From Neorhizobium tomejilense (GTDB taxonomy: Bacteria > Pseudomonadota > Alphaproteobacteria > Rhizobiales > Rhizobiaceae), in contig PVBG01000016.1 in the NCBI GenBank assembly GCA_002968845.1, positions 62,001 through 126,000 of the forward strand: DNA of 64,000 bases, written 5' to 3'. Of this stretch, positions 1 through 2,496 are shown in pieces (within the stretch, counting starts at the first letter, position 1; each line of letters opens with the position of its first letter). Under the pieces are notes generated by a model, which saw only the letters and a program-made list of their open reading frames with translations, was not told the DNA's origin and did not search any database. Both the position numbers and the translations under genes were made by a program.

Positions 1-162
1 CCATTTACCGATCCGCACTTTCTGGCCGATCTCAAAAAAGCTGATAGGGCTTACAAATACGCTGTCCGCGTCCAGGATTGCCGCAACAGCCTTCTCCGAC
101 AGCCGCTCATCGCCGGTCAATGACCAGGCCCAGGCATGGGTATCGAGCAATATCGCGCTCAA
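1..162 (-). CDS. PIN-domain toxin (VapC type), C-terminal part beyond window
   Basis: The first 54 codons of a PIN-domain ribonuclease toxin are visible; the rest lies outside the window. The start ILLDTHAWAWSL carries the first conserved acidic residue of PIN domains, and PISFFEIG matches the usual second acidic block. The proposed start is a TTG at 162-160, which overlaps the TGA of the upstream antitoxin (161-159), the tight coupling normal for toxin-antitoxin operons. VapC-family proteins are Mg-dependent RNases held inactive by the partner antitoxin. The family call is good; the target RNA cannot be known from sequence. The TTG start is inferred from the overlap, since no ATG is available near the conserved N-terminus. 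Confidence 0.85.
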   Translation of the reverse strand, partial: MSAILLDTHAWAWSLTGDERLSEKAVAAILDADSVFVSPISFFEIGQKVRIGKW

Positions 163-389
163 ACCTTGCCTTCCCAAAGATCGAGTTCATCTTCGGCCAT
201 GGGTTCGAAGAAGTCGGGGCCGCCATCGACTTTGCCCTTCAGCAAACCGATGGTGAAGCTGCTCTGCGGAACTGCAACGATCCTCGCGACCGGGATTTTC
301 CCCTTTGCAATCACCACTTCTTCGCCAGTTTTCGCCAGCTCGATAAGTTTCGACAGATTGGTCTTGGCTGCATGGACTGTGAACTGCAT
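159..389 (-). CDS. Phd/YefM-type antitoxin of the PIN toxin
   Basis: This 76-residue protein reads MQFTVHAAKTNLSKLIELAK and continues with EEVVIAKGKIPVARIV, the typical Phd/YefM (prevent-host-death) DNA-binding fold. The acidic C-terminal tail (FFEPMAEDELDLWEG) is the part expected to wrap the toxin. The ATG at 389-387 is preceded by a good ribosome binding site (AAGGGAG, then 4 nt). A longer reading from 455 would cross the operator and lacks a binding site, so it was not used. The downstream toxin gene overlaps it. Phd-type antitoxins neutralise their toxin and repress their own promoter, which fits the inverted repeat at 401-424. Confidence 0.88.
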   Translation of the reverse strand: MQFTVHAAKTNLSKLIELAKTGEEVVIAKGKIPVARIVAVPQSSFTIGLLKGKVDGGPDFFEPMAEDELDLWEGKV

Positions 390-400
390 GGGAACTCCCT

Positions 401-424
401 TAGCTAACTTGACTAAGATAGCTA
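401..424 (-). promoter_or_regulatory. Probable autoregulatory operator of the antitoxin-toxin operon
   Basis: A symmetric element of the form TAGCTA-n-CTT-nnnn-AAG-n-TAGCTA lies 12 bases upstream of the antitoxin start codon. The symmetry is read directly. Phd/YefM antitoxins usually bind such palindromes over their own promoter; that assignment is inference. Confidence 0.6.
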
Positions 425-490
425 TTTCGTCTTGTAAAATCCAGTCGTGCCGCATTGGGAATATCTACTGCGCGGGACAAATGGCGGTGA

Positions 491-1387
491 TTACGGCACC
501 ACCCGCTCCCGCCGGCTCATCACCAAGACCATGACCAGCAAGGCGACGATCACCAGGTCGCGCCAGACGATCGGTCCGTAGCCGCTCCAGAGCGTTTCGG
601 CAAAGCCGATGACGGCGGCGCCAGCGGCGGCACGCAGGGGATTGGAATGACCTCCGGCCGCGGCGATCAGCACAACCTTCAGGCCGAACAGCAGGCCGGC
701 GCCAAAATCCATCGTGCCGTAGTGGGAGGTCGCGAGCACACCGCAGATCGAGGCATAGAGCGCTGCCGCCGCGTAGGCCGTGACGAAAACCCGCGCGGAA
801 TTGGTCCCGGAGAGTTCAGCCGCCAGCGAATCGTCGGAGACCGCCCGCCACACGCGGCCCCAATGGGTGCACGCCAGTACCAGATAACCCGCCCCGATGA
901 TCGCCAGCATCACGGCAACGTTGGCGAGCTGGATCAGCGTCAGCGTCACCGGAAAGCCGTCTGCGTGCCAGAAGATGACCGCGTCGTTGAGGAACGGCGG
1001 CAGCCACAGTTCGCGGGTATCGGCGGCGATCCGGGCGCCTTCCATGAGCACCATCAGCGCGCCGAGCGAGGCGACGATCACCGCATTCGGCGAGATCTTT
1101 GCAAGCGGCCGCATGACCACCTGCCCGATCGTTACCCCCGCCCCGATGCCGCCGGCGATCCCGGCCGCGGCGCCCAGTCCCAATGCGGCCGGCAGGATCA
1201 GCCAGAGCCGGTTCCAGCCGAAATGGGCGAAGAGCAGGTAGAGATGCCCGGAAAAGGCGAAGATCGCGCCATAGGTGATGTCGGCGCGCTTCGTTACAGC
1301 AAAGGCGATCGCATATCCGAAGGCAAGCGTCGCGTAGAGCGCCGCCAGCGGAACCGCGTTCGCCAGTTGCTGCAAGAGATAGGCCAT
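491..1387 (-). CDS. Branched-chain amino-acid type ABC transporter permease (LivH-like)
   Basis: A very hydrophobic protein of 298 residues with about eight membrane segments. It carries the LivH-family features GAIFAFSGHLYLLFA near residue 45, VIVASLGALMVL around residue 110 and the late cytoplasmic loop GLKVVLIAAAGG that contacts the ATPase. LivH permeases form the inner-membrane channel of importers for branched-chain amino acids, urea or short amides. I chose ATG 1387 (GGAG 6 nt upstream); the longer frame from 1414 starts inside the operator at 1413-1442. No partner permease, ATPase or binding protein lies next to it in this window, so the substrate is unknown. It is divergent from the CGNR regulator gene, which may control it. 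Confidence 0.82.
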   Translation of the reverse strand: MAYLLQQLANAVPLAALYATLAFGYAIAFAVTKRADITYGAIFAFSGHLYLLFAHFGWNRLWLILPAALGLGAAAGIAGGIGAGVTIGQVVMRPLAKISPNAVIVASLGALMVLMEGARIAADTRELWLPPFLNDAVIFWHADGFPVTLTLIQLANVAVMLAIIGAGYLVLACTHWGRVWRAVSDDSLAAELSGTNSARVFVTAYAAAALYASICGVLATSHYGTMDFGAGLLFGLKVVLIAAAGGHSNPLRAAAGAAVIGFAETLWSGYGPIVWRDLVIVALLVMVLVMSRRERVVP

Positions 1388-1412
1388 GGGCACTCCGATA
1401 GCGGCGATGAAC

Positions 1413-1445
1413 ATAACTGGTCAATCGCATTTTACCAGTTATAAT
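1413..1445. promoter_or_regulatory. Divergent promoter/operator between livH-like gene and CGNR regulator
   Basis: Two perfect 9-base arms, ATAACTGGT (1413-1421) and ACCAGTTAT (1434-1442), are separated by 12 bases, so their centres are 21 bp apart (two helical turns). A perfect TATAAT at 1440-1445 overlaps the right arm and TGGTCA (1418-1423) sits 16 nt upstream. Transcription would begin at about the ATG at 1451, giving a leaderless message. An operator bound by the CGNR protein is inference. Confidence 0.65.
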
Positions 1446-1450
1446 ATCGC

Positions 1451-1999
1451 ATGAACTTCTCCTGGACCCCGCATCGTTTTGCCGGTGGCGCACTGGCGCT
1501 GGATGTCGCTAACAGCGTCATCCTGCGCTTCGATCCCGAGCGCAGCATCGACCGCTTCGCCGAGCCGCAGCAGATGCACGTCTTTCCGAAAGCAGCCGAA
1601 AAATTCTCGGCCGAGCGGGCGCTGTTCGGGGATCTCGCGCCTGTCCAGGCTAAGAACCACACGCCGTTCCTCACGCTGCGCGAAGCGATAGACCGCTATT
1701 TTCGCGCCCGTGTTCGTGGCGACGACGCGCAGGCATTGCTTGCCGATTTCCTCGAAGCGACTGCGGCCATTCTGCGCCGTGCCGAGAGGAATTCGCTGGA
1801 GGCGGCGACCGCCCATTCGGCGCTCAGGCTGCTTGCCGAGGAAGAGATTTCGCGGATGAAGATCTGCGGCAGCTGCGGTTGGCTGTTCCTCGACCGCAGC
1901 CGTAACCGCAGCCGTACCTGGTGCGACATGGCGGTGTGTGGCAACCGCGTCAAAGCCAGCCGCCATTATCATCGGAGGAAAAAGGAGGCCGCGTCATGA
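1451..1999 (+). CDS. CGNR zinc-finger / ABATE-domain putative transcriptional regulator
   Basis: A protein of 182 residues. The C-terminal part reads KICGSCGWLFLDRSRNRSR and continues WCDMAVCGNRVKASRHYHRR, the CGNR zinc-finger signature with four cysteines spaced C-x2-C and C-x4-C followed by a basic helix. The N-terminal 120 residues match the companion ABATE (stress-induced transcription regulator) domain in pattern. Such proteins are thought to be DNA-binding regulators. It is divergent from the LivH-like permease gene across a 21-bp-phased inverted repeat and overlaps the next gene by ATGA. No ribosome binding site precedes the ATG; the TATAAT only 5 nt upstream suggests a leaderless mRNA. 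The ligand is unknown. Confidence 0.88.
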   Translation: MNFSWTPHRFAGGALALDVANSVILRFDPERSIDRFAEPQQMHVFPKAAEKFSAERALFGDLAPVQAKNHTPFLTLREAIDRYFRARVRGDDAQALLADFLEATAAILRRAERNSLEAATAHSALRLLAEEEISRMKICGSCGWLFLDRSRNRSRTWCDMAVCGNRVKASRHYHRRKKEAAS

Positions 2000-2496
2000 T
2001 GCGTCGATTTATGGTTCTCAGCCTTGCAGCCCTCGCCCTTGCCGCCTGCCAGCGCGAGGCGGAAAAGCTGGTCGAGGTGAGCGGGCATATCTTCGTGTTC
2101 AACTACCGGGTCGCCAGCGCCACCTACCTCGTGACGCTCAACAAGACCGGGCCGATACCCGAGGGAACCGTGGCAATCGCCAAGTTCGACGACCCCGCCG
2201 GCGGCGATCCGATCGTCATCAGTGAGAAAATCTTCCCCGCCTGGAACAAGATCACCCTGCAGAGCCCCAATGTCCGCTGCGTGCGCAAGGACAAGCCCTA
2301 TTCCGTGGATATCCGGCTGGTGGATTCGGGCGGCCGGACGCTGCAGGAATTGAAGACCCAGCTCATCTCCGACGTCGACCAGTCGGTGCTTCCCAGCAAG
2401 CCGCTGGTGCTCGGAGCCGGCTACGAGCGGAACCCGGAAGTCTTCAAGCCGGATGGCACGGTGGACTACGGGCGGGACAACGACTGCCCGGCCTGA
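1996..2496 (+). CDS. Putative lipoprotein of unknown function
   Basis: A 166-residue protein beginning MMRRFMVLSLAALALAACQ, a lipoprotein signal peptide with lipobox LAAC and Cys17 as the lipidated residue. The mature part is hydrophilic, probably beta-rich, with two further cysteines near VRCVRKDKPY and the C-terminal DNDCPA, which could pair as a disulphide. The start ATG overlaps the TGA of the CGNR gene (ATGATG) and has an AAAGGAGG binding site at 1981-1988, so the two genes are translationally coupled. A longer frame from 1921 was rejected because it lacks these signals. I do not recognise the family; operon membership suggests an envelope role under the CGNR regulator. Confidence 0.8.
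   Translation: MMRRFMVLSLAALALAACQREAEKLVEVSGHIFVFNYRVASATYLVTLNKTGPIPEGTVAIAKFDDPAGGDPIVISEKIFPAWNKITLQSPNVRCVRKDKPYSVDIRLVDSGGRTLQELKTQLISDVDQSVLPSKPLVLGAGYERNPEVFKPDGTVDYGRDNDCPA

Follow-up and report, generated by a model that had tools for sequence, protein, structure and literature searches.

What governs the short interval between a gene for a CGNR zinc-finger regulator and the permease gene that points away from it, and where does the regulator's own mRNA begin? The two genes lie near one end of a 64,000-nucleotide stretch of the Neorhizobium tomejilense genome (hereafter the window, meaning the whole stretch that was analysed), and a palindrome lies between them. The features of the locus are listed below in order of position.

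491 to 1387, minus strand: LivH-like permease gene (BPD_transp_2), with its start moved from 1414 to 1387
1393 to 1396, minus strand: Shine-Dalgarno-like GGAG of the permease gene, preceding the ATG at 1387
1410 to 1415, minus strand: -10-like hexamer TATGTT of the divergent permease gene (mostly TATATT or TATAAT in relatives)
1413 to 1442, no strand: CGNR box, the candidate operator, ATAACTGGT-N12-ACCAGTTAT, with TAAC-N20-GTTA inside
1413 to 1421, no strand: left arm (half-site), overlapping the CGNR -35-like and permease -10-like hexamers
1418 to 1423, plus strand: -35-like hexamer TGGTCA of the CGNR gene (TTGTCA in several more distant genera)
1434 to 1442, no strand: right arm (half-site), overlapping the CGNR -10 hexamer
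1440 to 1445, plus strand: -10 hexamer TATAAT of the CGNR gene, 5 nt from the ATG at 1451
1451 to 1999, plus strand: ABATE/CGNR zinc-finger regulator gene, probably leaderless, identified by PF11706 and PF07336 scores and invariant cysteines
1996 to 2496, plus strand: small gene overlapping the CGNR stop codon (ATGA), an arrangement also annotated in S. meliloti Ak57

A palindrome between a CGNR gene and a permease gene

The full letters of the palindrome are ATAACTGGT CAATCGCATTTT ACCAGTTAT. An earlier note on this DNA had described two perfect 9-bp arms with centres 21 bp apart, placed over the -35 and -10 of the CGNR gene, and a TATAAT only 5 nt before an ATG that has no ribosome-binding site. 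All of this was confirmed: the arms are complementary at 9/9 positions (11/12 when extended to 12 bp) at that centre-to-centre distance, they overlap TGGTCA and TATAAT respectively, and no Shine-Dalgarno-like sequence precedes the CGNR ATG in the window. With up to three mismatches allowed, the arm pattern matched once in the window and never in 100 shuffles. The 6.56-Mb genome also holds one match at this threshold, which is the site itself with no mismatches, and the reversed control pattern likewise had one genome match. A variable-gap form of the pattern gave one genome match against none for its control; a looser degenerate form gave seven extra genome sites at three mismatches, not above its control. 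The single genome match, the shuffles and the conservation described below speak against a chance palindrome.

The CGNR gene product has 182 residues and scores 60.8 bits against PF11706 (zf-CGNR; cut-off 24), a family matched by all 31 aligned orthologues at E ≤0.001. C139, C142, C158 and C163-G164-N165-R166, which comprise the four metal-binding cysteines and the CGNR motif, are invariant in 31/31 orthologues. The N-terminus is ABATE-like, although its score against PF07336 is a little below the cut-off in the window protein (23.0 vs 24.4 bits), and 28 of the 31 orthologues match this family at E ≤0.001. The protein has zinc-finger and ABATE matches only, with no helix-turn-helix match in Pfam. 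The best predicted model has a mean pLDDT of 84 (60 to 73 for the remaining four models), and its best fold match is 3h0n (probability 1.00, E 1.4e-3), with a TM of 0.46 that indicates modest agreement. The same entry, Jann_2411 of the ABATE/CGNR family (PF07336 and PF11706), is the sole PDB sequence match to the protein (E up to 1) and appears to share its two-domain layout. No solved relative with DNA was found, as this lone match is described without DNA. In the available excerpt of the Jann_2411 paper, the authors regard dimerisation as likely and suggest that the finger might bind nucleic acid or DNA (PMC2954205); that excerpt proposes DNA binding and gives no operator, whereas we propose an operator and rules for its spacing.

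The permease scores 75.5 bits against BPD_transp_2 (cut-off 26.8) and 86.7 bits against the NCBIfam LivH equivalog, below the cut-off of 379, and is called LivH-like only. Its start is most likely the ATG at 1387. A start at 1414, which would overlap the left arm, was rejected because that ATG exists in the window's copy alone (1/67 of the loci described below), where a single base both gives the weaker -10 TATGTT and makes the misleading ATG. On the other side, the small gene has no Pfam match, its protein starts like a lipoprotein in our reading, and it is probably co-transcribed with the CGNR gene; the ATGA overlap is found in 47/67 loci. The outer part of the window (1 to 455) contains a Phd/YefM-type antitoxin gene at 159 to 455 on the minus strand, followed by an ORF that is cut by the window start and that we take to resemble a PIN-domain toxin.

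Conservation and promoters in the Rhizobiaceae

Protein matches were obtained in 83 of the 200 relatives searched, and from these 67 Rhizobiaceae loci were kept (E down to ~2e-22) after leaving out weaker matches (paralogues and remote members), L001 and 14 duplicates (L044-L048 and L053-L061). TAAC-N20-GTTA is exact in 66 of the 67 loci and degraded in the other (L077). In each of the 67, a permease homologue points away from the CGNR gene and the motif lies 8 to 10 nt before the CGNR ATG. The earlier note had asked for a comparison beside orthologous CGNR/LivH pairs, where missing arms would speak against it, and the arms were present. Agreement with the 18 arm letters is 15 to 18 in 57 loci and 12 to 14 in 10. 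The second arm is often imperfect, with symmetry of 9/9 in 22 loci, 8/9 in 26, 7/9 in 10 and 3-6/9 in 9. One locus (L091) retains 9/9 symmetry despite a changed core, CTAACTTGC...GCAAGTTAG, and eight loci have a two-sided change of the outer pair from A-T to C-G. Over the 67 loci, column information is 1.9 to 2.0 bits in TAACT and GTTA and 1.1 to 1.9 bits over most remaining arm positions and the inner AA/TT; the flanks past both -10 positions and the start codon have ~0.1 bit (maximum 0.6). We also assembled an overlapping set of 82 loci: S. meliloti Ak57, one Shinella record and the best 80 of 531 named records, which include Rhizobium, Neorhizobium, Ensifer, Shinella and Ciceribacter. All 82 score at least 14/18 arm letters and start with ATG.

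The box and its two genes occur together. Gene order in S. meliloti Ak57 matches that of the window, and the box is there too; moaD/moaE and ndk flank its module on either side, and the annotation shows neither a substrate-binding nor an ATPase gene within 3 kb. A close CGNR orthologue is lacking in 7 of 56 same-genus genomes, and the palindrome was found in none of these seven at up to three mismatches. In the 18 orthologue-lacking genomes searched, all permease homologues were remote (21-35% identity, 18/18). Judged from sequence, the CGNR gene, permease gene and box travel as a unit. In another family of the order, the CGNR gene at L205 (genome G132) is accompanied by a diverged box and, upstream, by a permease homologue of 34% identity; the module may thus predate the Rhizobiaceae.

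Both predicted promoters draw on the arms. TGGTCA lies 16 nt upstream of TATAAT and a promoter scan reports the pair, but such a scan expects 1.0 site of this kind by chance, so the case for the CGNR promoter is carried by conservation. The CGNR -10 position matches TATAAT at 5-6/6 letters in 56/67 loci and at 3-4/6 in 11/67. The permease -10 in the left arm does so at 5-6/6 in 57/67 loci and at 2-4/6 in 10/67, the window's weaker TATGTT (4/6) being among the latter; it is followed by a leader with a Shine-Dalgarno-like word in 52/67. As the -10 hexamers lie within the arms, the operator and both promoters would form a single element of ~36 bp, in which polymerase on either promoter should exclude the other.

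Leaderless translation of the CGNR gene is strongly suggested by these alignments, because the distance from the -10 position to the ATG is 5, 6 or 7 nt in 20, 41 and 6 of the 67 loci, and because all 82 loci of the overlapping set, with the same 5-7 nt, start with ATG. An mRNA start further upstream, with translation from a leader, is unlikely. The weak -10 position in the 11 loci mentioned above would fit a leader, but Shine-Dalgarno-like words precede the ATG in just 2/67 loci, the -10 keeps its short distance throughout both sets, and conserved residues (W5, H8-R9-F10, G12-G13 and L15-A16-L17-D18) come straight after the ATG. Leaderless mRNAs are known in the Rhizobiaceae, since the available part of a study of S. 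meliloti reports 171 transcription starts on the first base of an AUG, all of them AUG (PMC3616915). In those mRNAs the AUG is at the transcription start, and the AUG of the CGNR gene is likewise at the expected start. The available excerpts of papers on Deinococcus genes with an adjacent -10 (PMC12340547) and on agrobacterial start sites (PMC10469942) make no mention of the window's CGNR gene.

TAAC/GTTA boxes at other CGNR genes

As controls, we took the upstream DNA of CGNR paralogues and of more remote members of the family; L205 alone has a permease homologue within the retrieved sequence. Several control loci carry other palindromes of the same geometry, for example GTAACGGTT-N12-TACCGTTAC (L226). 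A generic palindrome score was too weak for most paralogues (6-7/9 was frequent in shuffles) and was replaced by a fixed TAAC/GTTA spacing test. L254, L280 and L283 had been left out beforehand as repeats; one of 76 loci had no readable ORF, and removal of seven permease-module relatives (L205, L255, L278, L279, L281, L284 and L286) and two duplicates left 66 non-orthologous loci.

Within ~280 nt, TAAC-Nk-GTTA occurs at k=20 in 21 of these loci, at k=21 in 14 and at k=10 in nine. Three loci each have k=11 and k=12, and all other values of k from 4 to 40 have 0 or 1. Any of k=10, 11, 20 or 21 is present in 40/66 loci and none in 26/66. A gap of N20/21 corresponds to two turns of the DNA and one of N10/11 to a single turn. 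The inverted order GTTA-Nk-TAAC and two unrelated control words gave 0 to 6 loci at any k (all 75 loci); the maximum of 6 is GTTA-N13-TAAC, which paired boxes 42 bp apart produce. N20/21 was found in 30/66 loci against a mean of 0.2 and a maximum of 3 in 200 rounds of dinucleotide shuffling. In the 18 kb upstream of CGNR genes N20 occurs 23 times and N21 19 times, compared with 0 and 4 times in 156 kb of neighbouring sequence from the same loci (1.25 and 1.03 per kb vs 0 and 0.03). Since 29 of the 66 loci are those in which the pattern first came to notice, the other 37 are the fairer test. These keep the peaks (10 loci at k=21, seven at k=20 and six at k=10); 13 of them have N20/21 and 20 have at least one of N10/11/20/21. 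One paralogue clade (L190-L192 and L290, from Agrobacterium pusense and relatives) has no recognisable box and may be regulated differently.

Boxes are also often paired. Across 86 loci there are 19 neighbouring pairs of N20/21 boxes, and 12 of the 19 are spaced 40-43 bp, which is four turns. This suggests cooperative binding of two dimers. Pairs ~42 bp apart are seen at L264, L268, L269, L291, L296, L298 and others. The arrangement bears on whether there is an operator at all, or only chance symmetry in the -10 and -35 hexamers of two divergent promoters that overlap. Both -10 positions do lie within the arms and are conserved; however, the conserved AACTGG/AACTTG core and the inner AA lie inside the -10s, TGGTAA agrees with TTGACA at just 3/6 letters by our count, and promoters need neither the paired boxes nor the one-turn versions found in other clades. 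We regard a promoters-only origin as very improbable indeed.

Among 197 plasmid records with a match, two (H1 and H5) have orthologues, and we examined 20 others with non-orthologous CGNR genes, with start positions estimated approximately for L291, L296, L297, L302 and L305. The box is present in 12 of the 20 and the exact pattern is missing in eight. By phylum, it was found in 1/6 Actinomycetota (Streptomyces albidoflavus, two N20), 1/2 Bacillota (Planococcus, two N21) and 1/1 Deinococcota (N21), so evidence for the box outside Pseudomonadota is thin. Three Streptomyces loci (L288, L293 and L294) have TCAC-N11-GTGA, a relative of the one-turn box (e.g. GTCACCTGTCAGAATGGTGAC), in which a GTG start comes right after the final base of the arm; a leaderless GTG gene with a one-turn box is possible there.

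The spacing of the half-sites is inherited with the protein. In a quick tree built from 97 CGNR proteins, in which support is under 80 on 44 of the 94 inner branches, 18 of the 21 N21-box loci fall in a single clade with SH-aLRT support of 99, and the N10 and main N20 groups lie elsewhere. Over 50 rows with a single spacing class, the tree requires nine changes, compared with a shuffled mean of 22.4 and a minimum of 17 (300 rounds). That spacing follows the protein tree is expected if the CGNR protein reads the box.

The element is also tied to CGNR genes when genomes are scanned from the operator side. The strict form TAACYTGTCAA-N12/13-GGTTA, derived partly from the non-orthologous CGNR loci, fails to match the site in the window, among many more, and so tests specificity, not sensitivity. 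Among 249 genomes of the phylum, 33 of which have a CGNR match in the same draw, it gave 15 sites in 14 genomes (reversed pattern, four matches), every one of them 444-676 nt upstream of a same-strand zinc-finger match. A scan of 397 genomes from the order found 22 sites, spread over 21 genomes, against one match for the control; all 22 are at CGNR genes. Ten had already appeared in the first scan and two belong to loci analysed earlier; the other 10 come from genomes new to the analysis, and each lies upstream of a same-strand CGNR gene. The two scans combined thus place 27/27 distinct sites upstream of a CGNR gene.

Other regulator families also have inverted TGGT..ACCA and TAAC..GTTA sites. 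A different regulator, for example GntR/FadR- or TetR-like, might bind the palindrome and control the permease/CGNR pair. We consider this distinctly improbable, given the single exact site in the host genome, the adjacency of all strict-scan sites to CGNR genes and the way spacing tracks the CGNR tree. Moreover, where annotation was seen, the divergent gene varies by locus (alpha/beta-hydrolase, EamA or MFS transporter) and the CGNR gene is the common neighbour. The mirror-image element is very probably a DNA switch bound by CGNR regulators. A broader claim, that CGNR zinc fingers use one operator code across bacterial phyla, seems likely to us: inverted TAACC-like half-sites, set N10/11 or N20/21 apart on one DNA face, often paired four turns apart, with the number of turns inherited with the clade. 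The earlier interpretation is supported by this analysis; it had foreseen neither the permease promoter in the arms nor the same half-site and helical spacing at CGNR genes of other groups.

A proposed autorepressed divergon

The best explanation as a whole, which we hold with considerable confidence, is that the palindrome would be the CGNR protein's own operator in an autorepressed divergon with a leaderless regulator mRNA. From the patterns above we infer binding, dimerisation, repression, a ligand and the 5' end of the CGNR mRNA as follows. A CGNR dimer would set its two C-terminal zinc fingers on a pair of TAACNGG half-sites in inverted orientation, which lie on one face of the helix and are separated by two turns. 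The right arm would provide the -10 of the CGNR gene, whose transcript would include the small downstream gene and begin at or within ~2 nt of the AUG, and hence be leaderless. The left arm would provide the permease -10, giving an mRNA with a short leader and a Shine-Dalgarno sequence. Bound CGNR protein would block both promoters until a ligand of the ABATE domain, perhaps the permease substrate, releases it. A dimer would be suited to half-sites about two turns apart; one-turn boxes would fit only if some clades had a different linker or dimer.

The CGNR protein could instead bind the box and activate the permease gene, as a single dimer between divergent promoters is a known activator layout too. 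We think this quite unlikely, as the half-sites overlap both -10 positions and the CGNR -35, where a bound protein is expected to exclude RNA polymerase. Repression of both genes is also the layout of TetR/MarR-type autorepressor divergons, in which a dimeric repressor sits between its own gene and a divergent target, on a palindrome over both promoters. The proposed CGNR module resembles these, but its protein has no helix-turn-helix Pfam match and its half-sites are two turns (or one) apart.

We found no published CGNR operator in the open-access literature among the matches listed; one group of papers, among the matches listed, appeared by title to concern primers and unrelated sequences. 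In the available part of a Bordetella transcriptome table, a CGNR gene whose locus number is beside modABC is co-induced with modABC and sulfur genes (PMC9976334), which is a hint to a ligand or target.

CGNR proteins are widespread and annotated as putative regulators only, and a recognisable operator offers a way to find the targets of each. If the one code holds, the operators, and hence the target genes, of the family would be predictable from sequence alone. The box allows a zinc-finger DNA-binding fold other than helix-turn-helix to be tested, and lets one study how the family has moved between one-turn and two-turn operators. At the locus itself, an operator merged with two promoters and a leaderless regulator mRNA would be a compact and readily tested switch.
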